Assembly: GCA_002929135.1 (NCBI GenBank)
Contig: PESC01000024.1
Location: forward strand, 1-64,000
Origin: Methylomonas sp.
Lineage (GTDB): Bacteria > Pseudomonadota > Gammaproteobacteria > Methylococcales > Methylomonadaceae
Reading direction: 5' to 3'
Length of the DNA stretch: 64,000 nucleotides
Part shown: piece by piece, positions 11,726 through 64,000 of the stretch
How positions within the stretch are numbered: the first letter of the stretch is position 1
Layout of the letters: each line of letters starts with the position of its first letter
The notes under the pieces: model-generated
Databases searched by the model: none
Seen by the model: only the letters and a program-made list of their open reading frames with translations
Told to the model about the DNA's origin: nothing
Position numbers and translations under genes: made by a program

Positions 11726-11728
11726 CCA

Positions 11729-17699: not shown

Positions 17700-17746
17700 C
17701 GGCATGATCGGCACAAAACGCTGGCTTGCTGCCTTTCCACAGCTAC

Positions 17747-17953
17747 TCAATCGGGCGGATCGGACAATGCCGTTTTGTCTTCGAAGGCGTCATCCAGTGT
17801 GGGAGAACCTGGAATTTTATGTGCCTCGGTCGCCCAATCGCCCAGGTCGATCAGTTGGCAGCGTTCACTGCAAAACGGTTTGAAACGCTCGCTGGCCAGC
17901 CATGGCACGGGCTTCTTGCAGGTTGGGCAGGCGACGACAGGCGCGGTCGCCAT
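17747..17953 (-). CDS. yacG: DNA gyrase inhibitor YacG
   Basis: A 68-residue zinc-binding protein with the four conserved cysteines of YacG (CPTC at 9-12, Cys28 and Cys32) and the tryptophan-rich middle ([12 protein letters not shown]). In E. coli it binds GyrB and inhibits gyrase. It starts directly after the zapD stop with no gap, in the usual gammaproteobacterial order coaE-zapD-yacG. Confidence 0.95.
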
Positions 17954-44742: not shown

Positions 44743-45383
44743 CTCAATAAATCCTGAATTTGCGAACGCGCCGGATAAACGATCTGCCGTGCCGCGACAT
44801 CGCGCGTCACCACGCTGCCAGCGCCGATGATGCTGCCCGCACCTACCCGTATGTCTTGAATCAGCGTCGCCCCGGCGCCGACATGCACCGCGTCGCCCAG
44901 CGTGACACCACCACACAACACCGCCCCCGGTGCGATATGCACGCTGTGGCCGATGCGGCAATCGTGCTCGACGATAGCGCCGGTGTTGACGATGCAGCTT
45001 TTAGCAATAACCGTGCCTGCCTGAATAATGGCACCGGCCATCACTTGTACGCCTTCGGCCAACGCTACGTCGTCCGCCAGCAGTGCCGCAGGATGCACCA
45101 GAGTCAGGAATCGATAACCTTTGCTGTGAAAATGCTGCCACACGCGACTGCGACCGCCCTGATCGCGGGGCAAGGAACCCAAGCCGTTCACCAATACAAC
45201 CCGGTCAGGCAAGTAGGCTTCGACGGCGGCATCGCCACCCAGCACGGTGCAGCCCAACCAGTCATCGCCTTTTGTTCGGGCCGGATCGACGACACCCAGC
45301 ACATCAAACTCACGGCGGCGCAGGCTATCCAGCAACACCTTGGCGTGGCCACCGCTGCCCAGCAAAATGACCGGTTGGTTCAT
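44739..45383 (-). CDS. legH: Sugar O/N-acyltransferase of the NeuD/LegH type
   Basis: A 214-residue left-handed beta-helix acetyltransferase: an N-terminal Rossmann-like sugar-binding part (VILLGSGGHAKVLLDSLRRR) and hexapeptide repeats (about 105-200, with VNTGAIVEHDCRIG and HIAPGAVLCGGV). In legionaminic acid synthesis LegH acetylates the C4 amine of the sugar. The His of EHDC is the likely base. Start and stop overlap its neighbours by 4 bp each. The substrate could also be the O-acetylation step done by NeuD, but the company of legB, legC and legG favours LegH. Confidence 0.82.
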   Translation of the reverse strand: MNQPVILLGSGGHAKVLLDSLRRREFDVLGVVDPARTKGDDWLGCTVLGGDAAVEAYLPDRVVLVNGLGSLPRDQGGRSRVWQHFHSKGYRFLTLVHPAALLADDVALAEGVQVMAGAIIQAGTVIAKSCIVNTGAIVEHDCRIGHSVHIAPGAVLCGGVTLGDAVHVGAGATLIQDIRVGAGSIIGAGSVVTRDVAARQIVYPARSQIQDLLR

Positions 45384-48862: not shown

Positions 48863-49835
48863 TGTAACGGTCGGTTTTGTAGTGTTTGAGGTTGTCGGGA
48901 TTGCAGAACCAGGTGATCGTGCGCTGCAAGCCCTCCTGCAAACTCACCTGCGGCGCAAAGCCAGTCAGCGAGAAAATTTTGCCGTTGTCGCACCACAGGC
49001 GGTTGACTTCGGATTTTTCCGGACGCAGGCGCTGCTCATCAACGATGAACTCAACCTCGCTGGCCATCAGGTTTTTAATCAAATTCAGCGTATCGGCCAC
49101 CGAAATCTCGAAATTGGAGCCGATGTTGACGGTTTCGCCTATCGTGGCGCTGGCTTCGGCCAGGGCGATGAAGCCCCGGCAGGTATCTTCGACGTAATTG
49201 AAATCGCGGGTCGGTGATACGTCGCCCAGTTCGATCTGTCGTTTACCTGCCGCAATCTGGCTGATGATGGTGGGTATCACCGCGCGTGCCGATTGCCTTG
49301 GGCCATAGGTGTTGAAGGGCCGGGCAATGGTCACTGGCAGACCGAAGGCATTGAAGAAACTCATCGCCATGGCATCGGCGGCGATTTTCGAGGCGCTGTA
49401 GGGCGATTGCGGCTGCAACGGGTGGTTTTCGTCGATCGGCACGTACTGCGCGGTGCCGTAAACCTCGCTGGTGGAGGTGTGAATCAGCCGCCGCACTTCG
49501 GCATCGCGGGCCGCCTGGCAGATGTTCAAGGTGCCGCGAATGTTGGTGTCGACGTAACTGTCTGGCGCCTGGTAGGAATACGGGATGGCGATCAGCGCCG
49601 CCAGATGGAACACGGTGTCGATGCCTAGGCAAAGGCTGCGGCAAAACGCCGGATCGCGCACGTCGCCGGCCATGATGTCGATGTCATGCTTGCAACCGAC
49701 CTGTTCCAGCCAGCCCCAGTGGTTGAACGCGTTGTACTGCGCCAATGCCCGCACCCGGCAGCCTTGCGCTACCAACATTTCAGTCAGGTGCGAGCCGATA
49801 AAACCGTCGGCGCCGGTGATTAAAACCTGTTTCAT
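48855..49835 (-). CDS. legB: NAD-dependent 4,6-dehydratase LegB
   Basis: Converts an NDP-GlcNAc to the 4-keto-6-deoxy sugar. The 326-residue SDR-extended protein has the NAD-binding GADGFIGSHL (residues 8-17), the active-site TSTSEVYGTA and YSASK, and the ARPFNTYGPRQSARAVI block shared by LegB. The first methionine of the longer frame was rejected: ATG 49835 overlaps the legF stop by 4 bp and has the right N-terminus. Confidence 0.92.
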   Translation of the reverse strand: MKQVLITGADGFIGSHLTEMLVAQGCRVRALAQYNAFNHWGWLEQVGCKHDIDIMAGDVRDPAFCRSLCLGIDTVFHLAALIAIPYSYQAPDSYVDTNIRGTLNICQAARDAEVRRLIHTSTSEVYGTAQYVPIDENHPLQPQSPYSASKIAADAMAMSFFNAFGLPVTIARPFNTYGPRQSARAVIPTIISQIAAGKRQIELGDVSPTRDFNYVEDTCRGFIALAEASATIGETVNIGSNFEISVADTLNLIKNLMASEVEFIVDEQRLRPEKSEVNRLWCDNGKIFSLTGFAPQVSLQEGLQRTITWFCNPDNLKHYKTDRYNV

Positions 49836-50533
49836 ACCAAGCCTTGTTTGATGTATGCCTCGGCGATAGCCCAGTCTTCTTCGGTGTCGATGTCCAGGCT
49901 TTGAATCGTGTTCATCACCAATGGCACGGTATTGGGCGGATAAAACGATTGGTGTTCCAGCAAATGCCGGGTTTTGCACAAATACATCGCGCCATTGGGC
50001 GTCAACAAGGGAGGCTGTTGCTGGCGGCTGGTCTGGGTGGGTTGCTGCCTGTCCAGTGCCGCCAGATAACCATCGTGGATGCGGAATAGCGTGGTCAAAT
50101 CACGGTGAATCGGCTTGCAGCCAATCACCGCATCGACCGCCGGGCTGGCTGCCATCTCGACCGCCTGACGTATCAGCGCCGCCGTACGAAACGGCGAGGT
50201 GGGCTGCAACCACAGGGTGAATTCGGGGCTGTAGCCATGATGGGCCACAAACCAGACGACAGCATGCTCAATCACCGGCAAGGCCGCCACAGCGTCACCG
50301 GCATACGCCGCAGGCCGCAGAAACGGTACGCTCAAGCCCGCCTGTCGCCCCAGCACGGCGTACTGTTCGGAATCGGTCGACAAAATCGCCAAGCCATCTG
50401 GCAACGCAGCCTGGTTGATGGCCTCTGCCGTCCAGGCCAGCAAAGGCCGCCCCGCCAGCAATTTGATGTTTTTGTCGATTAGGCCTTTGGAACCGGAACG
50501 CGCCGGTACCACGATCAGAATTCGTATCGTCAT
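49832..50533 (-). CDS. legF: CMP-nonulosonate synthetase LegF
   Basis: Activates the nine-carbon acid with CTP. The 233-residue NeuA-family nucleotidyltransferase has the start VPARSGSKGLIDKNIKLLAGRP, the LQPTSPFRT segment, and the C-terminal SLDIDTEEDWAIAE with metal-binding aspartates. Start at ATG 50533, 8 bp after the preceding glycosyltransferase gene. Together with legB, legC, legG, legI, legH and ptmE this completes the CMP-legionaminic acid route. Confidence 0.9.
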   Translation of the reverse strand: MTIRILIVVPARSGSKGLIDKNIKLLAGRPLLAWTAEAINQAALPDGLAILSTDSEQYAVLGRQAGLSVPFLRPAAYAGDAVAALPVIEHAVVWFVAHHGYSPEFTLWLQPTSPFRTAALIRQAVEMAASPAVDAVIGCKPIHRDLTTLFRIHDGYLAALDRQQPTQTSRQQQPPLLTPNGAMYLCKTRHLLEHQSFYPPNTVPLVMNTIQSLDIDTEEDWAIAEAYIKQGLV

Positions 50534-50541: not shown

Positions 50542-52230
50542 TCAACAGCTCAATTGATGTGGCAGGTCGGTCGTGGCCTGTTTGTGCGGCTGACCGCAAA
50601 GCCGATAAAACCCGATCAGACGCTGAACCTGGCTGTCCATTGACAATCGTTCGCGGGCTGCCAATACACCTTTACGCAACGCCAACCAATCCAAACCTTG
50701 CAGGACATTGGGCAAGTCGCGCAATTGCTCGGCGGAAATGGCTAAACCACAGCCGTGGCGCTCGACAAATTCAGCCGTCGCCTCGGCACGGTGACTCACC
50801 AGAACCGGAAGACCTGCTTCCAGATACATGAACAATTTAGACGGGATCAGGGTTTTGAAATGTTCCGCCCCAACCAGCAGGGTGTCGGCGTAATCGTAAA
50901 CGATCAGACCCAGGTCATAATCGCTGATGATTTGGGCGATACGCCCTGGTAATTCGCCTTTCAGGAAACGATAGTTCGGGTAGCGTTCGGCCAGTGCCAA
51001 ATGGTCGGCATAAACATCGACATAATCTTCCTCGGCCATTTTCAGCGGATTATTGTAAACATCCAGAGCAAAACCCTGGCCGACGATGGTTTCGACCGTA
51101 TCCAGCAACTGGGCATCGCTGAACAATGCGGCCGGGTGCTTGGCATTCACGGGCGGAATGCCGCCGGCAAACACTAGCCTGGGGCGTTGCGGCACAGGGC
51201 GTTCAGGGTCGGTCGCAACGTAAAACTCCGGCAACGGATAGCACAAAAACTGTAACCAGCGTGATGGCCGACCGGTGCCGCCTAGCAGATCCATGATGCG
51301 GCGACAGCCCTGGTAAACGATGCCGTCGGCATGATGGACCAGATATTGCTCGCACGCCATCTGCACCTGTTGCAATGCAGCGACATCATCGCCCCAGGTT
51401 TGACGCATGTGGGGCAGCAGTTGTGGCAAAGCGTCTGGTGGCAGAAAAAATGAGTTCAAATCCATCAACTCAACAATTTGCTGACCGTCGTCTGGCAAAA
51501 ATGCGTCGATCAACACCGGAATGTGATAGCGGAACAGCCAACCCTGGGTATGCAGCACCACCCCGCGTGCGCCTTGCAACCACAACGAAAAGCTGAGCAG
51601 GTCGGTTGCCAGCACGTCATCGAAATACCCCGACTTGTGTTCCCGCAAATCAGGGTTGAATGTGATAGCAACGGTACGAAAACCCTGGCGACGTAAGCTG
51701 GCACTCATCCGCAACTGGTTGTAATACGCGAGTTTGGCGACAAAAATCACCACCGGCGCGTCACCCGCCAGTAATGCATTCAGGCGTTCGGCCAATTCCC
51801 GGCGATGCCGGGCCAACGCCAGGGCATATGCTTGCTGTACATCGGCGCTGGCGATGCCGAATACACACGCTCCCGCTACCTCGCCGTCATCCTTGGCAAA
51901 CACCTTGAGCGCCGCTTCGCCCACGCTGCCGCGTTGTAGCGGCATCCCACAAAATTGACGGCGACGGGTGGGATTGTCGAGCGGGTCGATCGCCACGCGA
52001 TACGGCAGCGCGGCCAATTGTTCGCACAACAAGGCGGTTAGCGGCGAAATACCACGAATCGTCACCACACCGTTCGGCAGATGGCGTTGCAACACATCAA
52101 GCAAGGCATGTGCGCAGGCCTCATGGTTAAAAGACTCTGCATCCAGCAGTGCGCGCCAATTGCTGCCCAGTGCCGCCAATGCCGTCGGCCTGGCTATGGC
52201 ACTCTCGATAACAGCATCACTGACGTTCAT
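50542..52230 (-). CDS. Putative glycosyltransferase of the GT-B fold
   Basis: A 562-residue protein whose C-terminal third reads like the donor half of a GT-B enzyme (RPRLVFAGGIPP, NYRFLKGELPG, PSKLFMYLEAGLPVLVSHRA). The N-terminal 150 residues are helical and unlike known families; the middle (about 150-330) resembles an acceptor domain. It could attach the CMP-sugar or another sugar to flagellin. No Maf (MAF_flag10) signature is seen. I start at MNVSDAV (52230) because GAGGAG stands nine bases upstream; the longer frame has an unlikely arginine-rich prefix. A 25-bp gap separates it from the small gene upstream. Confidence 0.7.
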   Translation of the reverse strand: MNVSDAVIESAIARPTALAALGSNWRALLDAESFNHEACAHALLDVLQRHLPNGVVTIRGISPLTALLCEQLAALPYRVAIDPLDNPTRRRQFCGMPLQRGSVGEAALKVFAKDDGEVAGACVFGIASADVQQAYALALARHRRELAERLNALLAGDAPVVIFVAKLAYYNQLRMSASLRRQGFRTVAITFNPDLREHKSGYFDDVLATDLLSFSLWLQGARGVVLHTQGWLFRYHIPVLIDAFLPDDGQQIVELMDLNSFFLPPDALPQLLPHMRQTWGDDVAALQQVQMACEQYLVHHADGIVYQGCRRIMDLLGGTGRPSRWLQFLCYPLPEFYVATDPERPVPQRPRLVFAGGIPPVNAKHPAALFSDAQLLDTVETIVGQGFALDVYNNPLKMAEEDYVDVYADHLALAERYPNYRFLKGELPGRIAQIISDYDLGLIVYDYADTLLVGAEHFKTLIPSKLFMYLEAGLPVLVSHRAEATAEFVERHGCGLAISAEQLRDLPNVLQGLDWLALRKGVLAARERLSMDSQVQRLIGFYRLCGQPHKQATTDLPHQLSC

Positions 52231-52255
52231 TGTGAATCGCTCCTCGTCGTTGTGT

Positions 52256-52393
52256 TTATGACTTGACCAGATCGGTAGTCGGCGAGTTGATCCAGGACAG
52301 GCCGACCTTCGTTTGATTCGACAGGTGATAATCTTCGGCAGAAACGCCTGGCGTATCGCGCGGCATGAACAAGGCAATGCGATGAATTTTCAT
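52256..52393 (-). CDS. 45-residue peptide gene coupled to the B12 radical SAM gene
   Basis: An ORF of 45 codons plus TAA whose ATG overlaps the radical SAM gene's TGA (ATGA, 52390-52393), exactly as in the neighbouring coupled pairs. The product opens MKIHRIALFMPRDTP and continues with a polar tail (residues 16-45) ending TTDLVKS. Its first 14 residues resemble the start of the glycosyltransferase at 54334-55488 (MKLEHLGLFMPGNTP; 8 of 14 identical). It could be a real small protein, a peptide substrate of the radical SAM enzyme, or the remains of a glycosyltransferase paralogue. It has no Cys and no clear leader/core border. Too short for ordinary gene calling. Confidence 0.5.
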   Translation of the reverse strand: MKIHRIALFMPRDTPGVSAEDYHLSNQTKVGLSWINSPTTDLVKS

Positions 52394-54321
52394 GCCTGGT
52401 CAGCAGATGGGATGAAAAACTCGTTCCAGCAGATCACTTTTAGCGGCGTCACCTGCTGATACTTGATCTCATCCAGAACATTTTGATATTCGACCCATGG
52501 CAGAATAACCACTACCTGACCCTCAAGCTGCTTGATGTGGTCGGCATCGAGTAGCCGGGCTGGTTTGTTCAAAAACAGTTTATCCATCCGAAACGCTCGG
52601 GTGTCGTATACAGCAGCCACACAGTCCGGGTCGATTGCTATCTCTTGCAGAAACACCGTGGCAAATCGATCGAGAGCGGGGATGAATACTGCTTGCTGCC
52701 GGTTTTCGGCCAAAGCATCCATTTCAGCTTGAAACCGCTGGTAAATCGGTTTCATGTGTGGAATATCCTTGGCTTTCAAATGCATTTTTCGAGCACACTC
52801 AGGGCATAGCACATTGATGCCCTGCACACCAACCGGCCCTCTCAAAACAGGGCCGTTTTCATCCTGTTCAAATGGAAACGACAAATCCATCGTTTGTTGA
52901 TGTAAACAACTCGGGCACTCAATGGTGATGTTCGATTTCCAGTGTTCGACAATTTCGCCAGTCACCACGCGAGTGCAGCGTTTGCGATGATTTTCATCAT
53001 TTAATTCGCGCAGCTTGATATACCAGCTACTATATTCGTCATCACTCATTTCGGTCATATTGACCTGGCTGCTGTACAAATAGCCCGATATATTGCACAG
53101 GCTGCGCATAAATACTTCGCGATCGGCAATCAAGCCTTTTTCCAGCGCATAATGATAAATGGGTGTGCCGGCATAGGGAATTACCGCCGACCAATCGCAG
53201 AAATACAATTGATTTTCTTCCTGAAACTGCAAACTCTCCTGAAGAGTCTCCCGAGTTTCGGCCGGATCGCCGAATAAAAAATTACCTTGAATGCCAATTC
53301 TGGCCTGGCGGACGATCTTGACCGCATCAGCAATCGTTTGTTTGGTGATTTTTTTCTTCATACTGCCCAAAACCACATCGCTGCCGCTTTCGATACCAAA
53401 GGAAATATAATTGCAACCGGTTTCCTTCATCAGTTGCAACATCGGCAAGTCCAATTGATCCATGCGTAATTGGCAAAACCACTGAATATCGATATTGCGC
53501 TGTTTCAATAAATTACAAAACTCGACGACCCGGTCTTTGTTAGCCGAAAATAACTCGTCGTAAATAGAAAAGTTATTGATGCCATAGGTTTGAATATAAC
53601 CTTGGATTTGATCGACCACCCGACTGATGTCGTGCTTTTTATACGTGCCCATGCCGGCATGGTGACAAAACGTACATTTGAAAGGACAGGAGCGACTGGC
53701 CGAGATCGGGAAGGAGCGACCGGCGTCCAGCCGGGTCAGATGATGGGAGAACTGACCATGCTCGCCCTGCAAGCCAATGTGGTCGCGAATGCCAAACGAA
53801 TCCAGATCCGGCAATGGTAATTCATCCAGATTTCTAGGCGACTCACCCTCGCCGGTAAATCGGGGTTTATCGGCATCCCAATACCAGATGCCCGCCACCT
53901 TGCCTGTCTCATCGCCCTCGGCCATCGCTTTCAGCAAGCGGCTGAAAATCAGTTCCCCCTCGCCTACCACCGCATAATCTGGCCGCAAGGTGTTCATCAT
54001 CAATTCACCTTCCACCGAGGTGATTCCGCCACCCAGCACGATAGGCACGTCACTACGGGTCTCCCGAATAGCCTTTATCAGGCGGTCGATCTCGTTGAAT
54101 GCCACGGTCAAGCCGCTGATGCCGACCACATCCACGGCTTCGTGTCGCAAGGTATCTCGCAACGCCGGGTTGCGCCTTTCCATCGGCATGTGATTGAGAT
54201 TCAAGCCCATCACCTCATGCCCCTGCGTCTGGATGTAGGCCGAAATACAGGCCAAACCCAACGGAAAGTACGAGGCATTGGCTTGCGGGTAATAACTGGG
54301 CGAAATCAATAAAACTTTCAT
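52390..54321 (-). CDS. B12-binding-type radical SAM protein with a C-terminal zinc ribbon
   Basis: A 643-residue protein. Residues 1-150 form a Rossmann-like cobalamin-binding-type domain (PLGLACISAYIQTQGHEV, DVVGISGLTVAF, VLGGGIT); the strict DxHxxG motif is not seen. The radical SAM core follows, with the [4Fe-4S] cysteines Cys212, Cys216 and Cys219 in CPFKCTFC and a GIESGSD block near 309. Unusually, a tetracysteine ribbon (Cys469/472 in CPSC and Cys506/509 in CPEC) sits in the C-terminal third. Such enzymes methylate or rearrange unreactive carbons. It lies among glycosyltransferases and legionaminate genes, so a sugar, lipid-linked sugar or flagellin side chain is a plausible substrate. 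The 45-codon ORF follows with ATGA overlap. Function unknown. Confidence 0.85.
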   Translation of the reverse strand: MKVLLISPSYYPQANASYFPLGLACISAYIQTQGHEVMGLNLNHMPMERRNPALRDTLRHEAVDVVGISGLTVAFNEIDRLIKAIRETRSDVPIVLGGGITSVEGELMMNTLRPDYAVVGEGELIFSRLLKAMAEGDETGKVAGIWYWDADKPRFTGEGESPRNLDELPLPDLDSFGIRDHIGLQGEHGQFSHHLTRLDAGRSFPISASRSCPFKCTFCHHAGMGTYKKHDISRVVDQIQGYIQTYGINNFSIYDELFSANKDRVVEFCNLLKQRNIDIQWFCQLRMDQLDLPMLQLMKETGCNYISFGIESGSDVVLGSMKKKITKQTIADAVKIVRQARIGIQGNFLFGDPAETRETLQESLQFQEENQLYFCDWSAVIPYAGTPIYHYALEKGLIADREVFMRSLCNISGYLYSSQVNMTEMSDDEYSSWYIKLRELNDENHRKRCTRVVTGEIVEHWKSNITIECPSCLHQQTMDLSFPFEQDENGPVLRGPVGVQGINVLCPECARKMHLKAKDIPHMKPIYQRFQAEMDALAENRQQAVFIPALDRFATVFLQEIAIDPDCVAAVYDTRAFRMDKLFLNKPARLLDADHIKQLEGQVVVILPWVEYQNVLDEIKYQQVTPLKVICWNEFFIPSADQA

Positions 54322-54333
54322 CGTGTATTACAT

Positions 54334-55488
54334 TCAGGCATAGGCCAGATCGTGAAGAATTTTTTCGGCTCGTGCCCGCCAGGTGTGATGGGCCTGAATT
54401 ATCGCTCTAACCTCGGTGATGGCACTGGCTCTTGACGACAGGCACTCCAGGGCATTCTGGTAAGTTTGTTCGAAGTCAGAGCGCTTGAAGGCAAGATAAT
54501 GGCAACGGTCATCGAAATGATCGTGTAAACCGCGTCCTGGTACACGAAAGGCATCGACTTCATCATTGTCGTACCAAAACAGCAGGCCACCCGATGCCAG
54601 ACAGTCGATGGCGCGAAAATGAAAACTCACGCCGTCATGCAGATTGATGCGCGAATGTTGGTGAACCCGGTTGAGTTCCGCCGGACATGCCAGAAAATGC
54701 CGGTAAAACGCTTTGTATTCCTGCCATTCGGCCCAATTGCTGCTGCCGTAAATCGCAACAGACGCCGACTTGGCCAGCGCGAAATTCAGCAATTCGGTAC
54801 GATTTTGCACGCGTTTGGTGCGCTCCATCAAATCGTAGTAGTAAGCGTTCAAACACTCAGGCGGCAGCGGCGTGCCGGCGTCACGCAACAGATCATCGAT
54901 GATGCGTTTCAAATCGCCGTGGGTTTTTATTTGATCACGAGTGGCCCGCAAATGGTTGTCGTAGCGCTTCAGCACGTCACCGAACGACATGTCCGAATCA
55001 ACCGTCATGCGCCGTGCCAGTTCGGCATTGCTCCAGGGCAGCGGAATATGACCAATGAAATTGAAATCCACCTCGATTGACGCATCGCCCGGTAAAGGCT
55101 GGAAGGTTTGCGAACAGGTACCCGGCGGCAACCAGTCCTGCACTCCGCCAGTGCGGTAGTTGGCATCCCAGCCGGGATCGAAGAAATAGGTGATTTCACT
55201 GCCGGAAATCTGGGCTTCGGTACGTCCCTGAAAATCGACGATCCAGGCAATGTGCGGAATTCTGTACTGGTGTAGCGATGGCACTTCGTCCTTGACCCGA
55301 TTCATTTCAAACACTGCGTCTGGCCGGTATTGCGCAAGCCAGTCATGCATTTGTGCATCGCTTAGCAAGCCGCAACCGCCACTGACCCGGATACCAAGCT
55401 GGGCGAATGCGTCGCGCAAAAATCCGTAAACACGCCGATAAAACGGCGTATTTCCTGGCATGAAAAGCCCCAGATGTTCCAGTTTCAT
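54334..55488 (-). CDS. CgeB-like glycosyltransferase
   Basis: A 384-residue protein of the CgeB/Glyco_trans_1_2 type: an N-terminal half that binds the acceptor (VFEMNRVKDEVPSLHQYR, HIAWIVDFQGRTE) and a C-terminal half with RINLHDGVSFHFRAIDCLASGG, the conserved donor-side signature. CgeB of Bacillus acts in spore-coat maturation; relatives here are typical of flagellin and surface-protein glycosylation loci. Its ATG overlaps the stop of the 1271-residue gene by 4 bp. Confidence 0.8.
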   Translation of the reverse strand: MKLEHLGLFMPGNTPFYRRVYGFLRDAFAQLGIRVSGGCGLLSDAQMHDWLAQYRPDAVFEMNRVKDEVPSLHQYRIPHIAWIVDFQGRTEAQISGSEITYFFDPGWDANYRTGGVQDWLPPGTCSQTFQPLPGDASIEVDFNFIGHIPLPWSNAELARRMTVDSDMSFGDVLKRYDNHLRATRDQIKTHGDLKRIIDDLLRDAGTPLPPECLNAYYYDLMERTKRVQNRTELLNFALAKSASVAIYGSSNWAEWQEYKAFYRHFLACPAELNRVHQHSRINLHDGVSFHFRAIDCLASGGLLFWYDNDEVDAFRVPGRGLHDHFDDRCHYLAFKRSDFEQTYQNALECLSSRASAITEVRAIIQAHHTWRARAEKILHDLAYA

Positions 55489-58400
55489 TGGCCGCCGCTC
55501 GCGGTGAAACGCTGAACCGCCGCCGCCATGACTTGACCGGCCAAAGTGCGATACGACAAATGCTCGGCCAGACTGCGTAGTGCATGGGCGGCAATGCGTT
55601 GTCTTTGTTCAGGGTTGTTGATGTAGTAATCGACCTTGGCCAGCAAATCGCTTTCGTCGGCGTAAAGCACGGCGGCATCGCTGTCAAAAAAATCGCGCAG
55701 CGACGAGCCGTCGTAAATCATCTGCCGGGACAGCATGAAGCGCCCGGCGGCGATGATTTCCAGTGCCCGCATGTGCAAGGTGACACCGGGGTTGGCATTC
55801 AAACAAATCCTGGCCCGATTCATGATTTGGTTGAGCGCTGTGCCGTTTTCCGCCACGCCTTGGGCGAAGCGGGCAAATGCGGGATACGCATCCCAGTTTT
55901 TGCCGTAAACCCGGATGCATAAATGCGGAAACGCACGGGACAGCAAGTCGAGAGGCCAGTATTTCATGCGATTCAGATAGTCGAAATGCAGACGATTGCC
56001 TTTCAGACACACCAGAATATCGATGATCTCGTCACTCAGCTCATAACCGTGCGCCTTGAATAATTGACGAAAATCGTGAGTGGTTTTATCAGTGTGCAAC
56101 GTACAGAATTCTTCGAACCCGGCCATCGTCATTCCCGCGCAATGCCTTTCCAGCACCGAGTACAACTCGCGTAATTGTTCCAGGCTGATAACACCCCGAC
56201 GCATCAGCTCCACTTCGCCGCCATGCAGAATCAAATCCAGTGTTGGGTCACGTAACGGCTCCAGGGTTTTACCCGGTGCTTCCAGGTGGCTGACCAGCAG
56301 CAGGTCGCAATCTTCTGTCGTGTCGTCCAGCGGGTGATACTGGCTGTCATTGAAGCCCAAGGGCAAAAATTGCAATGGATAGTCGCGGTAAACCGGTAGT
56401 GCGTTGAAGCTGAGCCAACGCCTGGCGAATACGAAGTTCAGGTCATAAAGCCCCGGCGGGACATCGTTGCAACGGATGCTGGGCAACATGTCCTGAATCC
56501 AGTTGACGAATGGCAGCGTGTCGGGAATGCCTGCGTATTCATGGCGGAAATGATCTATCGTCAGAATCAGGTCGGGCTTGAAACGATTGATGTCGTCTAT
56601 CAGATGTTCGATCGTGCTCAAGTAATGATTTTCGGCTTCGCTGCACCAATGGATTTGTGCACCGCAACGCTCGAAACCGTCCAGCCAGTCGCGCATGCAG
56701 TATTTCAAAAAACTGGAAAAACGCGAGATGAAGCCCATCACCCGCAATTCGCCACGGCGTTCCTCGTTGAACTTGTCGCGCCATGTATCGATGTCGATGA
56801 GCGCGTAGTAGTCGGCCACCTGCCGCAGATTGTCGGCATGACGCTCCGCCCTGTGCTGTCTGGCGTCGACCAACCGTTGGTAAATCGCGTTGGCACCGAA
56901 AGCCGCCGAGGGATCGAGGTTGAACACCACATCCGGCAAGGCCGCCTCGAAACGCGCGAACTCGGCTTCGAGACACTTGGCAGCGTCGTTGCCGTGGTAG
57001 ATCAGCAAGCGGCGTGCGGCAAACAGCGGGGCGAAATCATGCAGCAACAGGTTCAACAGCCACATGTCCGATCGGGATTCCACCAGATAGAGCGGTACTT
57101 CGAATTCGGCCATTTCGGCAATTGGCCGCTCGGTGGCGTGAAAAACCGAGACCAGCTCATAACCGGCGCCGATACCGGCCAATGCGTAACAACAGGTATT
57201 TTCCCGGATCATGGTGCGGGTGTTGTCGGCGATCACCCGGCTGTGTTCCAGCCTATCAATGCGGTTCAGGCGATAGACTTCGTTAGCCTCGACAGTAAGC
57301 ACCACGCGCCAGAATTCGTCGTCTATCGGCAAACCCAGACTGATTTTCGCATCCAGACCGGCCCAGGCTGGCAGCAGCGTTTGGTAGAGTTCCGGACGAT
57401 GCTGCGCCAGTGCCGCCAGATTGGCATTCAAGCGGTTCTGGCAAATCTGCCAGGTGTCTTCGTCGTCACAAATCAACAGCATCCGCTCACCGAGCCGTTC
57501 GGGTAACAGCGGTGCGGCAACCTCACGGGATGGCCCAGCCAACGCCAACAACCGGCTCAAACCGGCGCTATTGCTTATATGGCAGGCGGCAGCCCGATAG
57601 GTGAAATGCGCGGCCATCGCCTGCGGTGCCCTGAGCGGCTGCAAACGCTGTTCGAGTATCTGATGCAGATCGGCTGCAGTTTTAAAAAACAGGCAATGCT
57701 GATCCCAATGCGGATACTCGGCAATGTCACGGCAATCGTAAACCAGCGGAATGCAACCACAGGCGGCGACTTCAGCCAGTCGCTGAGAATTGATCTCGAA
57801 AGGGTGACAAACTAGGGCATAGCGGGCGTTTCGATAAACCTCGGCAACAGACTGGCCGTGGCTCAGTTCGCCGCGATAATAGGGAGCAATAGCTTCGTCC
57901 TGTTCCCAATAACGGCCATACACGTCGACTGCCAGCCCGGCATGGGTCTGGCACAGCCAATGCACGGCATGATCACGGATCACATAGTGCAGCAATTTCC
58001 AGAACACGAATTCGTAACCCAGGCCTGCCGCACCGGCAATACCCGCAATCGTCGCTTCGTCGAAGGTTCCGCCACGTTCCATGACAGCAAGCAAGGCGTC
58101 TATAGCCTGACAATGTTGGGCATTAGCAAAATTTACAACCGGCAAATAAGAGCTGCCGACGAATACCACGCGCTCAGCGCGCTCGCCGGAAACCTGTGGG
58201 TGAAACACCGCCTCGTCGAAGGCAAAGTGCAAGCGCTCCACCTGCCTGGCGCCACAATCCGCCAGATAACGGTCGAACTGTGGCGAAATAGAGAAATTGA
58301 AATCCTGTTCGCGCCATGTCAATAACTGCCGGTTTTTCAATTGCGGCATCAAATCCTGCCACCACAGCAGATTGATAACGTCATCATGCAAAAACCCGTT

Positions 58401-59300
58401 GCTCTGGTTGTTGACAAAAAAACAGGCATGAGGGGCAAACTCGATGTAGCGTTCGAGCATGTCGACGACATTACTGCCTTCCATATCGTTGGCTTCGATA
58501 TGAAACAGGGTTTTCCAGCCCAGATCGGCAAAGGCCTGGGCAATGCCTTTGGCGCTGTACTGCATGACCGTGGTCAGGCGATTGCCTAAAATGAACATGC
58601 GTGGCCGTTTACCGACCGCCCCCGGACGCATGGCTTTGGCCTTGTTTGCCAATTGCCCGGTCAGCATGGCGCGGCGCTGTTTGACCGATTCGACGGCTTT
58701 GGCAATAGCCTGTCTGACCGCAGATTGCAATTCAGGCTCCAGACCGTCCGGGATTTGAATATTTTCGGGTATCCGCAAACGGGAACGCATGAAGAAATCC
58801 TCGAAATCGTCCAGTTCCAGATGAATCAGATTATCCAAGTCATGGGCTGGTAACTCGCCCCGGTAATAGCAAATCTGCAAGCCATCTATCGTGGGATGGC
58901 CACAGAACACCCGATTGCGCTGTTTGGCGACGTTCAGCGCCAGCAGTGGATCTACGAAATAGGTATCGAAATGCACGGATTCGGCCAGTTTATAGGTGGC
59001 TCGATACCGGCAAATCTCATCGACGACATCGGCTGGCATATCGTTGAATGCCACATGGCCATTTTGTGAAATGGCGATTTTGCCCGGAATCGGTAACGAA
59101 TTATGCGAGAAGAATTCGACAAAGCGTTCGGACGACACCTGGATAAGATAGGGCAGGCTTATGTCGGTCAAAGACCCGTCGTAATAGCAGTATTGCAGGC
59201 GAGGGCGACCGTCGGCACCCACCACGATTTGCTGTGCCTCGGCGGCCCGCCAGGCGTCCTCGATAGTCAGAAAGAAACAGTCGAAAACCGCAGCGTTCAT
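55485..59300 (-). CDS. 1271-residue protein with an N-terminal tandem repeat and two CgeB-like regions
   Basis: Residues about 5-105 and 110-208 are two copies of an unnamed unit: FDCFF/FDTYF near the start, LQYCYYDGSL/LQICYYRGEL, and RFVEFF/DFEDFF followed by LPIP/LRIP and an I-rich end. From about 232 a first CgeB-like glycosyltransferase region runs to about 600 (FVGSSYLPVVNF, NSQRLAEVAACGCIPLVYDC). A linker region (about 600-870) has no recognised domain. A second CgeB-like region occupies about 880-1270 (CLNANPGVTLHMRALEIIAAGRFMLS). It may add two sugars in turn, or one half may be inactive. No membrane segment or signal. It is 11 bp after the SPASM radical SAM gene. Confidence 0.78.
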   Translation of the reverse strand: MNAAVFDCFFLTIEDAWRAAEAQQIVVGADGRPRLQYCYYDGSLTDISLPYLIQVSSERFVEFFSHNSLPIPGKIAISQNGHVAFNDMPADVVDEICRYRATYKLAESVHFDTYFVDPLLALNVAKQRNRVFCGHPTIDGLQICYYRGELPAHDLDNLIHLELDDFEDFFMRSRLRIPENIQIPDGLEPELQSAVRQAIAKAVESVKQRRAMLTGQLANKAKAMRPGAVGKRPRMFILGNRLTTVMQYSAKGIAQAFADLGWKTLFHIEANDMEGSNVVDMLERYIEFAPHACFFVNNQSNGFLHDDVINLLWWQDLMPQLKNRQLLTWREQDFNFSISPQFDRYLADCGARQVERLHFAFDEAVFHPQVSGERAERVVFVGSSYLPVVNFANAQHCQAIDALLAVMERGGTFDEATIAGIAGAAGLGYEFVFWKLLHYVIRDHAVHWLCQTHAGLAVDVYGRYWEQDEAIAPYYRGELSHGQSVAEVYRNARYALVCHPFEINSQRLAEVAACGCIPLVYDCRDIAEYPHWDQHCLFFKTAADLHQILEQRLQPLRAPQAMAAHFTYRAAACHISNSAGLSRLLALAGPSREVAAPLLPERLGERMLLICDDEDTWQICQNRLNANLAALAQHRPELYQTLLPAWAGLDAKISLGLPIDDEFWRVVLTVEANEVYRLNRIDRLEHSRVIADNTRTMIRENTCCYALAGIGAGYELVSVFHATERPIAEMAEFEVPLYLVESRSDMWLLNLLLHDFAPLFAARRLLIYHGNDAAKCLEAEFARFEAALPDVVFNLDPSAAFGANAIYQRLVDARQHRAERHADNLRQVADYYALIDIDTWRDKFNEERRGELRVMGFISRFSSFLKYCMRDWLDGFERCGAQIHWCSEAENHYLSTIEHLIDDINRFKPDLILTIDHFRHEYAGIPDTLPFVNWIQDMLPSIRCNDVPPGLYDLNFVFARRWLSFNALPVYRDYPLQFLPLGFNDSQYHPLDDTTEDCDLLLVSHLEAPGKTLEPLRDPTLDLILHGGEVELMRRGVISLEQLRELYSVLERHCAGMTMAGFEEFCTLHTDKTTHDFRQLFKAHGYELSDEIIDILVCLKGNRLHFDYLNRMKYWPLDLLSRAFPHLCIRVYGKNWDAYPAFARFAQGVAENGTALNQIMNRARICLNANPGVTLHMRALEIIAAGRFMLSRQMIYDGSSLRDFFDSDAAVLYADESDLLAKVDYYINNPEQRQRIAAHALRSLAEHLSYRTLAGQVMAAAVQRFTASGGQ

Positions 59301-59311
59301 CAGTCAGTCAC

Positions 59312-60703
59312 TCAGATGAAGTTGATGTGTTCCGGCGGGTTTTTTAAGTCCCACAGGAACTTGTTGACGTAATCCTGGCGGCAACCTATCGCGCAATCCT
59401 TATGCACATCGACCGATTCAGCAACGTCCTTGTGTACCTGCCAGTAGCGCTCGCTGTTCGCGACCAGTTCGTAGAACGAATCCGTGTGCAGGTCACCGAT
59501 GTAAAAGCGTTCCTTGTTGAAAAACGGCCCGCACGGATAAATTTTGCCGTTACCGGAAATTTGCAACAAAAACGCCGTGCCGAAGCATTGGTCGTATTTG
59601 CGATAACCGTCTTTGTACAGACTGGTTTCACCTGCGGCATTGATCTTGTTCCATTTCGCCTGCACGACGTAGTTGTCGTTGCTCATTGCCTCGGCCTGTT
59701 TCAGCAAATCGTTGATGCTCAAATAGGCGTCGTAGTCGATGCCGATTTCCTTGTATTCGGAATCCGAGCAATGCTTGATGACGAAATAATCCACACCCAA
59801 TTCAGCACCCAATGCTGCCTCTGCCAGCACTTCGTCGAAACATTCCGGGATCAGCACCATTTGAAGGCCAATCGTGCATTTGTAGCCCTTGTCTTTCTTG
59901 ATTTTCACCAATTCGCGAATCTTGCCGATGAGCAGGTCGAAATTGCCCTCAACCGACTGATGCACCCGGCGAAAGCCTTCCGGGGTACCGGCCGACAAAT
60001 TGAAGCGGATGTAGCTCATGTTCTTCAGCAAATCGTCGGCACGGCTCATATCGAGCGCAATACCGTTGGTGGCCATCGCGGTATCGATACCCAATTCGCC
60101 AGCCAGCACTGTCGCATCGTACAAAGCCGGATTCAGCGTCGGTTCGCCGTCGCCGATGAAGCCCAGCGAACGCACCCCCAAGCGGCCGCAATCGCGGACG
60201 AAATCCAGCAGCGCCTCGCGACCTATCATGGCGCCCTTGGTCATGTTCTGCACTACGGCATAACAGTACAAGCAGGCGGTATTGCAGAACTTGGTCAGGC
60301 CCATATCGATATGCACCGGCGCAAAACGCTCGCCGTTTTGCCAGGCTTGAACCCGATCCAGATGATGCATCATCTTGTGGCCATCGAATCTGAAGCGCTC
60401 GTGCCGGGTACGGAAGCTGGGGCCGGTAAACTGGTTCGGCGCCGGTTTGTCATGCTCGCAGCCAGCATCCAGGCGGATGATGCCTTGCTGACCATCGTGC
60501 GATACGGTTTCAAGCTGTTGCCCCGGCAAACGGGTCAGTTGCCGGGTGTCGATGATCTGGTAATCCTGCGACAGTGCACTGCGATCGACGATCTGGTTGG
60601 ACGTGCGCAGTTTATGGCCTGGCCGGTTGAACAATGGCGCATCGTCTGGAATGGCCGTGGCGGCAGCATTGCCGAAACGATTGATTTGCTCGGGATTGGA
60701 CAT
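59312..60703 (-). CDS. Radical SAM protein with a SPASM-like C-terminus
   Basis: A 463-residue protein. A 115-residue N-terminal extension precedes the radical SAM core with Cys140, Cys144 and Cys147 in CNTACLYC and GDGEPTLNP. The C-terminal part has extra cysteines in CFGTAFLL, IYPCGPFF and KDCAIGC, as in SPASM domains that hold further [4Fe-4S] clusters. SPASM proteins modify peptides, sugars or alcohols. It starts 16 bp after the E1-beta gene and is followed 11 bp later by the 1271-residue glycosyltransferase. No nearby precursor peptide other than the 45-codon ORF. Substrate unknown. Confidence 0.85.
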   Translation of the reverse strand: MSNPEQINRFGNAAATAIPDDAPLFNRPGHKLRTSNQIVDRSALSQDYQIIDTRQLTRLPGQQLETVSHDGQQGIIRLDAGCEHDKPAPNQFTGPSFRTRHERFRFDGHKMMHHLDRVQAWQNGERFAPVHIDMGLTKFCNTACLYCYAVVQNMTKGAMIGREALLDFVRDCGRLGVRSLGFIGDGEPTLNPALYDATVLAGELGIDTAMATNGIALDMSRADDLLKNMSYIRFNLSAGTPEGFRRVHQSVEGNFDLLIGKIRELVKIKKDKGYKCTIGLQMVLIPECFDEVLAEAALGAELGVDYFVIKHCSDSEYKEIGIDYDAYLSINDLLKQAEAMSNDNYVVQAKWNKINAAGETSLYKDGYRKYDQCFGTAFLLQISGNGKIYPCGPFFNKERFYIGDLHTDSFYELVANSERYWQVHKDVAESVDVHKDCAIGCRQDYVNKFLWDLKNPPEHINFI

Positions 60704-60719
60704 GGCGGGTCTCGATCAA

Positions 60720-61790
60720 TTAAAACGGGCCGACGAAATAGCGGTCGGGTTGATCCCTGGCCAGAGTGGATTGCAATGACCGGCATACGCTTGTGATTAG
60801 CGGCCGTCGATCCAGAATCTCCAGTATCGCAGCCGCAAGATGTTCGGCACCGGGGTAATAATCATTCGCCAGAAAATGCGAGGTCGGTACCGGATGATTG
60901 GGGTAAGCGACGAGACGCGGTGCCTGTTTCAATAAAGTGGGCTGGCGCTGATACAGCCGCGAAATCAGCAGGTGCCCGATCGAGGCCATTTCCGGTGCGC
61001 AATCTGCCACCAGCAAATGACCGGTTTGCGCAACCGAGTTGGCAACCGTTTCGACATCCAGCGGCGTCAAGCAGCGCATGTCCACCACGTCGGCTTCGAT
61101 ACCGTGCTCCGCCAGTACTGTCGCTGCCTTCAGCGCCTCGATGGTTATGTGTGAAAACGCCGCAATGGTAATGGCGTTTCCCTGTCGTAACCGGGCCGCG
61201 CCCGTAACGCCAGCCGCCGGTTGGCGTTTATCGACTTCGCCGGTGATGTGATGCAGCCAGCGATGCTCGACGAACAACACCGGGTTGTCATCGGCAATTG
61301 CGTTCAGCATGAAATGGTAGGCGTCACCAGCCGTGGTCGGCATCACCACCTTCAGCCCAGGCACCTGGGCGAACATCGCCTGCAAACTTTGCGAATGTTG
61401 TGGCCCCTGTCCCCAACCCCGACCGATGATGACCCGCACCACCAGCGGTACTTTTTGCTGGCCGTTGAACATGTAACACCATTTGGCCGCGTTGTTGACC
61501 ATCTGATCCATCGCCAACAGCGCGAAATCGATGCGCTGATGCACCAGCACCGGCCTCATGCCTGCCAATGCCGCACCGATACAGATGCCGGTCATGCCGT
61601 TTTCAGCCAGCGGCATGTCCTGTACCCGTCCGGCGCCGTAGGTTTCGCGCAGGCCCTGAGTGGTGGAAAAAATGGTTTTCGGATCGGGAACGCCTTCACC
61701 GATCACCAGCATGTCGGGATGCCTGGCCAGAGCATCATCCAATGCCTCGCGGATCGCCGCACCGTAGCTCAGAGTCATCACGTCAGACAT
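60720..61790 (-). CDS. TPP-dependent 2-oxo acid dehydrogenase E1 beta-like protein
   Basis: A 356-residue protein with the transketolase-pyrimidine domain (ALDDALARHPDMLVIGEGV, residues 12-30) and the C-terminal transketolase domain (VVDMRCLTPLDVETVANSV, about 235). It would pair with the E1-alpha-like protein encoded just upstream with an 8-bp overlap to form one TPP active site. It has the E1-beta QxxD/EH-type glutamate region. Because E2 and E3 genes are missing, it is not an ordinary pyruvate dehydrogenase; a ketol transfer to an aldehyde or sugar is more likely. Confidence 0.85.
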   Translation of the reverse strand: MSDVMTLSYGAAIREALDDALARHPDMLVIGEGVPDPKTIFSTTQGLRETYGAGRVQDMPLAENGMTGICIGAALAGMRPVLVHQRIDFALLAMDQMVNNAAKWCYMFNGQQKVPLVVRVIIGRGWGQGPQHSQSLQAMFAQVPGLKVVMPTTAGDAYHFMLNAIADDNPVLFVEHRWLHHITGEVDKRQPAAGVTGAARLRQGNAITIAAFSHITIEALKAATVLAEHGIEADVVDMRCLTPLDVETVANSVAQTGHLLVADCAPEMASIGHLLISRLYQRQPTLLKQAPRLVAYPNHPVPTSHFLANDYYPGAEHLAAAILEILDRRPLITSVCRSLQSTLARDQPDRYFVGPF

Positions 61791-62751
61791 GGATATGATG
61801 CGTCATGCTGATTACATCGGGACGACGACCGCTCAGCGCGATAGCGAACGCTTGATCTATTTCGACGCCAATCTGCTGTTCCATGACTTGCAAGTCGCCG
61901 TCTGTCACGCCGCATAGTCTTAGCATGTGTTCAGTGTGGCGTAACGGACAACGCAGTTTCCAGGTTGCCAGCTCGCCGGGCGGACGGTAACCCAGATCGT
62001 CGTCTTCGTTCGGCCCGCAATGCTCGGGCCAGCGGTGAGTATGGAGTTCCAGAAACTGTGGGCCTGCACCGGCGCGCACGGCGGCAATCGCGGCTTGCGC
62101 CAGGGCATGAACCTGTTCGACCCGGTTGCCATCACCGCTTGTCGCATTCAGACCATGGGCGGCGGCAATCGGGTAAATATCGCGGGCAGGCTGGCGCTCG
62201 TTCAGTGGCGTCATCACCGAATACTGGTTGTTCTCGCATACCATCACCAACGGCAGTTTTTTGAGGGCTGCGAAATTCAGGGTTTCGTGTACCACGCCTT
62301 CCTCGAAGCAGCCGTCACCGAAAAATACCACGACGACGTTGCCACTACCCTTGATTTGCTCCGCCCAGGCATAACCGGCTGCGACTGGCACCGTGCCGCC
62401 GACGATGGGCGTAGACGCCACGAATCCGGCGTTCAGATCGCTCAAATGCATGGAGCCGCCACGACCGCCACAACAACCTTCGGCAAAACCGTAGAGTTCG
62501 GCGAGCAAACCGACCAGGCTGCCCCCCTTGGCCAGATAATGGCCGTGGCCACGATGATTGCTGAACACTTTGTCGGCAACCGTCAGGTGAGCGCAAATAC
62601 CCACCGCGATGGCTTCCTCTCCGATGCACAAGTGGGTCGGGCAGCGCATCTGTTGTTCCGCATAGCGGGTGGCAATCGCCTCCTCAATGCGACGGATACG
62701 CAACATTCTGTGATACAAACCGGTCAATTCAGCCGTCGTCGGCAAGCTCAT
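61783..62751 (-). CDS. TPP-dependent 2-oxo acid dehydrogenase E1 alpha-like protein
   Basis: A 322-residue protein with the TPP-binding motif in full: Gly-Asp-Gly at 145-147 (FFGDGCFEEG) and Asn-Asn at 174-175 (ENNQYSVMTP). The N-terminal CIGEEAIAVGICAHL and SNHRGHGHYLAKGG match E1 alpha of the PDH and acetoin dehydrogenase group. The phosphorylation-loop region is short. The alpha/beta pair has no lipoyl E2 partner here. Start by the 4-bp overlap with the kinase gene stop. Confidence 0.88.
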   Translation of the reverse strand: MSLPTTAELTGLYHRMLRIRRIEEAIATRYAEQQMRCPTHLCIGEEAIAVGICAHLTVADKVFSNHRGHGHYLAKGGSLVGLLAELYGFAEGCCGGRGGSMHLSDLNAGFVASTPIVGGTVPVAAGYAWAEQIKGSGNVVVVFFGDGCFEEGVVHETLNFAALKKLPLVMVCENNQYSVMTPLNERQPARDIYPIAAAHGLNATSGDGNRVEQVHALAQAAIAAVRAGAGPQFLELHTHRWPEHCGPNEDDDLGYRPPGELATWKLRCPLRHTEHMLRLCGVTDGDLQVMEQQIGVEIDQAFAIALSGRRPDVISMTHHIHV

Positions 62752-64000
62752 TTCAGCAAGGTCGTGATGTATTTGAACAAGGCCACAGCCCGCACCGGCT
62801 CGCGGTTACAGACGATCTGCACGTCCAGCGCCGCCGCAACGCTACCGGCAAACAAGGCCATTTCCGGCACCAGGCCGCCGCCCAGACAGAGACCTGCCAC
62901 CGACAGAAAGGCATCGCCGGCACCGATCCGATCCACAACAGTGGAGGATAACGCCGGTATTTTGTATTGAGTACGCGTTTGATCCAGCAGCAATGCCCCT
63001 TTGGTGCCACGGGTAATGGCAATATGGTCGGCATCCAATTGATTGGCGAGCTGTCCGGCCAGTTCTTCGATGGCCGCGCTGCGGTCGTGCACCGCCAGCC
63101 TGAGTTCAGGCACGTTCATCGACAGGAAATTGGCGCGTGGGTAGCGGGTAATCAAATGATAACCACGGTTACCACTGTTGACCTGAGCATTGACGGCCAG
63201 AAACCGGGCCTTGCCGGACAAGGCCGCGACCATGTCTCCGGAAATGAAGCCATTACCGAAGTCCGGCACGATGACCACATCAAAATCGCGCAAATGCCGA
63301 TCCAGCCAGACGACGATCTTGCGGTTGATGTCTTCCGGCAATGGTGCGTCGTTGTAAAAATACACCTCGAACAACTTGGCAATGTCGGCATCGACATAAC
63401 GCCGCTTGACGATGGTCGGCCTATCCTGGCTGAAAAAAAACACCGGATCGATATTGGGATTCAGATGGGTGCGGATGAAGTTTTCGTGGCTCTTGGCAGC
63501 CCCCAGGCCGGACAACAACGTCACATTGTCGGTGAATTCGGCAACGTGATTGGCGACCGCAATCGCCCCACCGGCAAAGCGCTCGTAATCGTTATATTTG
63601 ACCGCAAACACATTGCCCTTGCCGGTCTGGCCCAATGGCGAGGTGTAATGGTATTCGTCGACGATGGCTTCACCAACCACCAGCACGTTGAGGTCTTTCA
63701 GGCCTTTCATCCGTTCGATGAGGCTATTGGCCGATATCCGATCCTTGAACTCGTCCAGATAGGCGGAAATTTCCGGCGAAAACACTTCAAAGTATTCGTT
63801 CAGCAAACGGGTCGAACTCGACGTCAGTTCGTCGGTGAAAAACACCTTGCCGCCGTGGCGCTCGACCGCCTCCTTCTCGTGCTGGATATTGCCGGTCAAA
63901 TCGTCGCTGGTACTTTTGTAATCGCTGCCTTTCACGTACAAGTCCGGCTTGACCGCATCCAATACATTGACAGCGGTCACGGCATGATTGATCGCCACGC
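62748..64000 (-). CDS. Bifunctional cytidylyltransferase / PfkB-family kinase, cut by the window edge
   Basis: The visible part is 417 residues. About 90 residues at the N-terminal side read as the end of a cytidylyltransferase domain (LYVKGSDYKSTSDD, FFTDELTSSSTRLLNE); the remainder (about 95-416) is a PfkB/ribokinase-type sugar kinase with the catalytic GAGDAF signature in DRIGAGDAFLSVAGLC. HldE (RfaE) has kinase first, then cytidylyltransferase; here the order is reversed. It would phosphorylate a sugar and activate it with CTP or ATP, making an NDP-heptose or similar. The start lies beyond the window; the GTG at 63998 is an internal valine codon. It opens the visible part of the cluster. 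Confidence 0.85.
   Translation of the reverse strand, partial: VAINHAVTAVNVLDAVKPDLYVKGSDYKSTSDDLTGNIQHEKEAVERHGGKVFFTDELTSSSTRLLNEYFEVFSPEISAYLDEFKDRISANSLIERMKGLKDLNVLVVGEAIVDEYHYTSPLGQTGKGNVFAVKYNDYERFAGGAIAVANHVAEFTDNVTLLSGLGAAKSHENFIRTHLNPNIDPVFFFSQDRPTIVKRRYVDADIAKLFEVYFYNDAPLPEDINRKIVVWLDRHLRDFDVVIVPDFGNGFISGDMVAALSGKARFLAVNAQVNSGNRGYHLITRYPRANFLSMNVPELRLAVHDRSAAIEELAGQLANQLDADHIAITRGTKGALLLDQTRTQYKIPALSSTVVDRIGAGDAFLSVAGLCLGGGLVPEMALFAGSVAAALDVQIVCNREPVRAVALFKYITTLLK

Follow-up and report, generated by a model that had tools for sequence, protein, structure and literature searches.

The locus described here is a run of genes at positions 50542-64000 of a window of Methylomonas sp. DNA, the window being positions 1-64000 of the 121,532-bp contig PESC01000024.1 (assembly GCA_002929135.1; genome 2.57 Mb, 95.9% complete). 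At its upstream end the run carries a seven-gene set, here called the module, that is transcribed in the order rSAM2, epimerase, SIS, CTKin, E1-alpha, E1-beta and rSAM1. rSAM1 and rSAM2 are radical S-adenosylmethionine (SAM) proteins of the SPASM type, SIS is a GmhA-like isomerase, CTKin is a nucleotidyltransferase-kinase fusion, and E1-alpha and E1-beta are subunits of a thiamine pyrophosphate (TPP) enzyme. The module is followed by two PF13524 glycosyltransferases, a B12-binding radical SAM protein (B12-radical-SAM), a GT-B-like protein, a legionaminate-type set and the flagellin gene fliC (Table 1).

Organization of the gene run

All of the genes in 50542-64000 are on the minus strand, and long plus-strand open reading frames in this interval (for example 59402-60796) are antisense to them. 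With gene starts picked by eye, on which the spacings depend, the intergenic distances are -8 to +16 bp apart from three larger gaps, which measure 159 bp upstream of the glycosyltransferase gene at 50542 (12 bp with a TTG start at 52377), 115 bp upstream of the NeuB-type synthase gene and 125 bp upstream of fliC. A first-pass annotation of this DNA had described a contiguous, tightly spaced set on one strand, and this description holds. The run is nevertheless truncated by the window, as it extends past the right edge to a first gene that starts at contig position 66940. The two radical SAM proteins of that annotation have to be corrected to three (rSAM1, rSAM2 and B12-radical-SAM), while its TPP enzyme is present but consists of two genes. 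No sigma-70-like promoter was found upstream of rSAM2.

The E1 pair, CTKin, SIS, the epimerase and both SPASM-type radical SAM proteins score over the Pfam cut-offs of broad families but fall under the cut-off of every NCBIfam model among the best 25 listed. To our knowledge the module enzymes belong to no nonulosonate route, in agreement with what the first-pass annotation had said of the radical SAM, TPP-enzyme and kinase/cytidylyltransferase genes.

Table 1. Features of the gene run, in order of transcription (positions are those of the contig, which coincide with those of the window up to 64000)
Feature	Positions	Strand	Remarks
rSAM2, 366 aa	65840-66940	-	beyond window
SDR-type (short-chain dehydrogenase/reductase) epimerase, 328 aa	64844-65830	-	beyond window
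GmhA-like SIS isomerase, 187 aa	64272-64835	-	beyond window
CTKin nucleotidyltransferase-kinase fusion, 506 aa	62748-64268	-	cut by window edge at 64000; PF01467 + PF00294
E1-alpha-like TPP enzyme subunit, 322 aa	61783-62751	-	PF00676, 184.8 bits
E1-beta-like TPP enzyme subunit, 356 aa	60720-61790	-	PF02779 + PF02780
rSAM1, radical SAM/SPASM-type, 463 aa	59312-60703	-	PF04055 + PF13186; conserved cysteines; structure model and fold search
Glycosyltransferase-like, 1271 aa	55485-59300	-	two PF13524 stretches
Glycosyltransferase-like, 384 aa	54334-55488	-	PF13524
B12-binding radical SAM protein (accessory), 643 aa	52390-54321	-	PF02310 + PF04055
GT-B-like glycosyltransferase, 562 aa with ATG start	50542-52230	-	no Pfam family matched; predicted fold matches GT-B enzymes
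CMP-sugar (cytidine monophosphate) cytidylyltransferase, probably LegF	49832-50533	-	PF02348
LegB-type dehydratase	48855-49835	-	514.4 bits, cut-off 475
LegC-type aminotransferase	47723-48862	-	537.4 bits, cut-off 420
NeuC-type epimerase, probably LegG	46566-47726	-	478.1 bits, cut-off 235.9
NeuB-type synthase, probably LegI	45380-46450	-	479 bits, cut-off 399.65
NeuD/PglB-type acetyltransferase, probably LegH	44739-45383	-	217.7 bits, cut-off 160.8
Sugar-1-phosphate nucleotidyltransferase	43690-44742	-	several nucleotidyltransferase models, all under cut-off
Flagellin gene fliC	42710-43564	-	PF00669, E 9.6e-43

Conservation of the module

When named genomes were scanned with an rSAM1 alignment, 370 relatives were confirmed, of which the best 79 loci, selected by rSAM1, were analyzed; many of their contigs stop close to the rSAM1 match. 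All five partners of rSAM1 (rSAM2, epimerase, SIS, CTKin and E1) are present together in 23 of the 79 loci and at least four of the five in 30. The complete sets include those of Methylomonas, whose koyamae species has an rSAM1 91% identical to that of the window, and Methylobacter in the window's order, those of Aquitalea, Paludibacterium, Vogesella and Xylophilus in another order, that of Polaromonas with genes on both strands, and sets in gammaproteobacterial bins, one Magnetococcales and one Omnitrophota bin. The high identity to the koyamae rSAM1, along with a PmoB-type gene near the start of the window, suggests that the organism is a methanotroph close to Methylomonas. Partial sets occur in Nitrospinaceae and a Thermoplasmatota bin. 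Where rSAM1 is N-terminally extended (56 loci), E1 is seen in 37, CTKin in 32, rSAM2 in 29, SIS in 28 and the epimerase in 26. Additionally, a plasmid of Azospirillum oryzae carries consecutive epimerase, SDR, PfkB, SIS, E1-alpha, transketolase-C, two aminotransferase and radical SAM genes. Clustering of these families in many genomes with a changed order indicates that the arrangement is more than chance. The neighborhood comparison supports the common pathway that had been proposed from the window alone, and the module genes probably serve one shared pathway.

Co-occurrence was also analyzed in samples of the order and the phylum, in both of which the genomes are related by descent and not independent. 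Among the 251 genomes sampled from the order, CTKin occurs in 16, each of which also encodes a full-length rSAM1 and has an rSAM2-type match. In the same order, one genome (G526) has full-length rSAM1 and no CTKin at threshold. In the phylum sample (299 genomes), rSAM-family matches are present in 44, CTKin in 46 and the two together in 41, and CTKin accompanies an rSAM1 of at least 65% identity in 14 of 15 genomes. Another genome (G457) has rSAM2, epimerase, SIS, E1 and a short rSAM1, with no CTKin in the stretch fetched. CTKin is patchy even within one genus (13 of the 32 same-genus genomes listed), so that carriers and non-carriers can be compared directly. rSAM1 relatives are found in 2 plasmid records at E 1e-20, and no CTKin relatives are found in a phage collection at E 1e-30. 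The gene set was not found described in the full-text literature, which is weak evidence given that the search saw titles and abstract openings and covered few subscription papers and no preprints.

TPP enzymes associated with rSAM1

A TPP enzyme is located within 5 kb of rSAM1 in 61/79 loci, and in 34/43 of those whose contigs extend 5 kb or more in both directions. Three subfamilies are involved, with E1 alone in 39 of the 79 loci, a split transketolase alone in 16, an acetolactate synthase (ALS)-type enzyme alone in 4, and two kinds in 2. These enzymes are concentrated close to rSAM1, with 58 systems per 409 kb within 3 kb versus 6 per 737 kb beyond. In an rSAM1 tree computed by a quick method, in which long branches were flagged and cut contigs left 9 of 84 rows without a label, the three subfamilies fall mostly in separate clades with at least 13 changes between them.

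The nearest solved family to the E1 pair is the E1 of pyruvate dehydrogenase (PDH), although E1-alpha reaches only 260.7 bits with the PDH model against a cut-off of 393.85, and E1-beta 246.5 against 321. The catalytic-type Glu and His columns of E1-beta are retained in 40/40 rows, where rows are aligned relatives with more than 40% identity and more than 75% coverage (more distant rSAM1 relatives are left out of these motif counts). E1-alpha has a loop of the RWxEHCGPxxDDxLxYR type, with EHxGP in 35/37 rows, whereas human PDH E1-alpha has RYHGHSMSDPG at that loop and a loop of the RYHGHS type is absent from module E1-alpha. Two E2 genes were found in the genome, one beside an E1 of the 2-oxoglutarate dehydrogenase (OGDH) type and the other beside an 884-aa frame that, from its size and place, is probably AceE. 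As both adjoin other E1s, the E1 pair of the window lacks a dedicated E2 in this 95.9%-complete genome.

The split-transketolase C chains found at module loci are nearest to the solved split transketolase of Carboxydothermus. The ALS-type protein that was examined is 856 aa long, and its TPP domains begin at residue 257; we read its N-terminal part, which matches no Pfam family, as cupin-like. At four ALS-type loci (L102, L103, L107 and L108) a D-galactarate/altronate dehydratase-family protein is encoded between the ALS-type enzyme and rSAM1. This family is also present in L104 and hints at a different sugar-acid chemistry in the ALS-type loci.

Radical SAM, isomerase and kinase proteins

The CX3CX2C motif of rSAM1 and four additional cysteines (C373, C391, C437 and C441) are conserved in 85/85 rows. 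Its auxiliary region has a profile match to BtrN (E 1e-4), and we take the spacing of the auxiliary cysteines to resemble that of BtrN as well. In a predicted model, of which residues 1-109 are unreliable, the core fold is nearest to DesII, then to peptide maturases such as SuiB, then to BlsE and, lower, to BtrN. rSAM1 shares with the Twitch/SPASM sugar enzymes BtrN, DesII and BlsE the radical SAM motif, four extra conserved cysteines and the fold, but differs from them in its low identity (12-17% for the fold matches listed) and in 109 extra N-terminal residues, which are the unreliable part of the model. The B12-radical-SAM protein is under all NCBIfam cut-offs among the best 25 listed and is present in some relatives only.

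The nearest relatives of SIS are phosphoheptose isomerases and those of CTKin are HldE-type proteins. SIS reaches 90.7 of the 209.45 bits needed for the GmhA model, and CTKin 98.4 of 521 bits for bifunctional HldE. CTKin has its nucleotidyltransferase first (PF01467, residues 29-145) and its kinase second (PF00294, residues 194-484), with HxGH and GAGD motifs in 33/33 rows. Elsewhere in the genome there are a phosphoheptose-isomerase-type gene (315.2 bits against a cut-off of 276, but under that of TIGR00441), an HldE-type kinase that exceeds its cut-off and a GmhB-like match under cut-off. As GmhA- and HldE-type genes elsewhere are over cut-off and those of the module are under it, the module looks, at the level of sequence, like a second, paralogous set beside the heptose-type genes of the genome. 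It shares with the adenosine diphosphate (ADP)-heptose route (GmhA, HldE, GmhB and HldD) a logic of isomerase, kinase, nucleotidyltransferase and epimerase. It differs from this route in that its proteins are under the NCBIfam cut-offs, the domain order of CTKin is reversed, and its run has no GmhB gene but has additional TPP and radical SAM enzymes. A family of about 335 aa (c14) adjoins CTKin in seven loci (L077, L086, L115, L123-L125 and L129); its sole match is a weak ArgZ-like one (22 of 27 bits).

A proposed pathway for a surface-glycan sugar

We propose that the module encodes an uncharacterised nucleotide diphosphate (NDP)-sugar pathway for an undescribed surface-glycan sugar, an interpretation for which we hold belief and doubt to be evenly balanced and which does not count a carbon branch as certain. 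In this scheme, for which we infer the substrates, step order, product and target from gene content, SIS would isomerise a sugar phosphate that CTKin would phosphorylate and then activate to an NDP-sugar, with the epimerase and rSAM2 adjusting the latter. rSAM1 would act on the sugar, perhaps by converting a hydroxyl to a ketone or by epimerisation. The E1-alpha/beta enzyme, working without a lipoyl E2, would then take a carbon unit from a 2-oxo acid and attach it at a carbonyl of the sugar, giving a carbon-branched sugar that the neighboring glycosyltransferases would add to a surface glycan. It seems somewhat probable that the TPP enzyme forms a carbon-carbon bond. The module is a new form of known sugar biosynthesis.

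Precedents for a branch exist in other sugar clusters. One source gives only two known mechanisms for two-carbon sugar branches, the PDH-like AviB1/AviB2 (with AviO2) and YerE, with Pau11/Pau12 proposed to act as the former (PMC4425429). Other sources propose the PDH-like EvdU5/EvdS3 for eurekanate (PMC10338323) and describe the single enzyme YerE for yersiniose in Gram-negative bacteria (PMC4753412). Judged by their descriptions only, the systems for avilamycin (AviB1/AviB2), paulomycin (Pau11/Pau12) and everninomicin (EvdU5/EvdS3) are like the module in having an E1-alpha/beta pair within a sugar cluster, and the module cluster has no E2 gene. They differ in that they are actinobacterial antibiotic clusters with 4-keto-sugar precursors, while the module has radical SAM, SIS and kinase-nucleotidyltransferase partners. 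YerE, of Gram-negative O-antigens, is by description like the ALS-type TPP enzyme that adjoins rSAM1 in a few relatives, but the window itself carries an E1 pair and no ALS-type enzyme. That E1-like and ALS-like enzymes both occur beside rSAM1, matching the two known solutions for branching, is the main ground for considering a branch. By this analogy a two-carbon branch as with AviB1/AviB2 and YerE is a tentative possibility that we consider somewhat less probable than its absence. Thus, the "branched or methylated sugar" of the first-pass annotation was a good guess in its first half, whereas methylation by the module is unsupported as the B12-radical-SAM gene sits in the variable middle of the cluster and is missing from some relatives. 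A wider generalization is that rSAM1 and a TPP partner constitute an unreported two-enzyme route to carbon-branched sugars, in which a radical SAM-derived ketone is used by any of three TPP subfamilies and which extends across several bacterial phyla and to an archaeal bin, where it supplies flagellin and other surface glycans. This we regard as unlikely.

If the proposal is correct, a compact and widespread gene set would make a class of sugar for which a passage of PMC4753412 gives only a YerE-type enzyme in Gram-negatives. Additionally, glycan synthesis would become a role for radical SAM proteins that match none of the curated families listed.

Several observations weigh against the proposal. 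No TPP enzyme is present within 5 kb of rSAM1 in 18/79 loci, 9 of them among the 43 that extend 5 kb in both directions. Where CTKin has a TPP enzyme within 6 kb (18 loci), rSAM1 is missing from the same distance in 12, so that the TPP step can do without rSAM1 there. The TPP step thus seems to be part of a wider pathway in which rSAM1 is a frequent partner, and for the same reason the idea that E1 and rSAM1 are a mere add-on to a SIS/CTKin unit was dropped. SIS, epimerase and rSAM2 are all missing from the stretch fetched at 27/46 CTKin loci (46 of 48 places were covered, leaving aside that of the window and one in G113 that is a second copy). The fold of rSAM1 is also like that of the peptide maturases SuiB and SkfB, which rank between DesII and BlsE, and three E1-associated rSAM1 relatives (L054, L145 and L146) are without all four auxiliary cysteines, a poor fit with a single dehydrogenase role for rSAM1. 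This cysteine loss, together with the phosphate-ligand check described below, has led us to rate the branch and the wider two-enzyme generalization lower. The shared descent of the order and phylum samples also lessens what their co-occurrence can say.

Alternative explanations

The relationship of SIS to phosphoheptose isomerases and of CTKin to HldE-type proteins would also fit a pathway to a linear higher-carbon aldose. In such a pathway the TPP enzyme would act first to make a ketose phosphate by two-carbon transfer, SIS would isomerise this product and CTKin activate it, and the epimerase and radical SAM enzymes would only tailor an unbranched heptose- or octose-type product. Split transketolases substitute for the E1 pair in many loci and adjoin CTKin without rSAM1 as well, as expected for such a sequence of steps. 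We compared 38 module C chains with two ordinary transketolases and the Carboxydothermus enzyme, using residue numbers and roles that we presume to be correct. The catalytic Glu and His are each present in 38/38, R358 is retained in 36/38 and R520 is replaced by Lys in 37/38, such that binding of a phosphate is possible, which likewise counts against our proposal. S385 (G in 35) and H461, two of the four presumed phosphate ligands, are each lost in 38/38, however, as is D469. At the level of residues this speaks against a sugar-phosphate acceptor and weakens an ordinary transketolase step on sugar phosphates. Furthermore, the genome already has GmhA-type and HldE-type genes over cut-off, and E1- and ALS-type enzymes normally use 2-oxo acids, leading us to consider a linear product improbable. 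Far less probable still is an ordinary 2-oxo-acid dehydrogenase E1 that uses a shared E2, with the genes being mere neighbors that have no common pathway. Clear membership in PF00676 and PF02779 and the proximity of PDH E1 among solved families are what such an enzyme would exhibit, but the missed PDH cut-offs, the altered loop in 35/37 rows, the location of the only two E2 genes beside an OGDH-type E1 and an AceE-like frame, and the repeated clustering of the gene families across loci are not.

The destination of the sugar is a separate matter. In this lineage the most likely acceptor would be a flagellin glycan, to which the sugar would be added together with a legionaminic-acid-type sugar; from gene order flagellin is a likely target here, and other carriers may deliver the sugar elsewhere. 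Alternatively, the sugar could be for lipopolysaccharide, capsule or exopolysaccharide, with the proximity of fliC reflecting a shared surface-glycan neighborhood. In keeping with this, fliC is within only 7 of the 79 named loci, and carriers include Omnitrophota, Lentisphaerae and Planctomycetes bins, where flagellin would not be expected as a general target. Against it, the run reaches the legionaminate genes and fliC without a change of strand, of 15 extended regions 10 have legionaminate genes (one region being too short to judge) and 3 reach fliC, and fliC is nearby in Betaproteobacteria, in Gammaproteobacteria bins and in a Magnetococcales stretch (L049). A Maf-like (PF01973) gene is also found just downstream of another flagellin gene of the same genome (contig C21, approximately 18094-20132). 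On balance we think a destination other than flagellin in this lineage doubtful.

Legionaminate genes and other features

As in the legionaminic-acid pathway, LegB-, LegC-, NeuB-, NeuC- and NeuD-type genes that are over cut-off lie beside fliC, and the seven-gene module is no part of this pathway. The legionaminate set had been called complete, which the models support for these five genes; the cytidylyltransferase at 49832-50533 matches PF02348, but its best NCBIfam model is PseF at 120.1 bits, under the cut-off of 205.7. We take the sugar-1-phosphate nucleotidyltransferase between this set and fliC to be PtmE-like. In Methylomonas and Methylobacter the module leads via glycosyltransferases to the legionaminate genes and fliC, with module and legionaminate genes on either side of a variable region that holds glycosyltransferases and accessory genes. 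This middle region varies strongly between Methylomonas strains (L057-L060, L135-L143 and L149), in the manner of a glycan-diversification region.

Plasmid pDCAR1 of Solidesulfovibrio carbinolicus (L208) carries a glycan cluster that encodes an rSAM1 relative, a transketolase C-terminal protein, an MptE-like (Maf-type) protein and several radical SAM proteins and methyltransferases. Elsewhere in the window, positions 11001-18000 are GC-rich (0.63-0.66 in 2-kb windows). This stretch encodes a fused glycosyltransferase of the GT4/GT1 type, a 747-aa protein that matches no Pfam family, and another of 813 aa in which phosphodiesterase and exo-endo-phosphatase domains are combined. A gene at 762-2057 encodes a PmoB-type monooxygenase subunit, which identifies the organism as one that oxidizes methane or ammonia.

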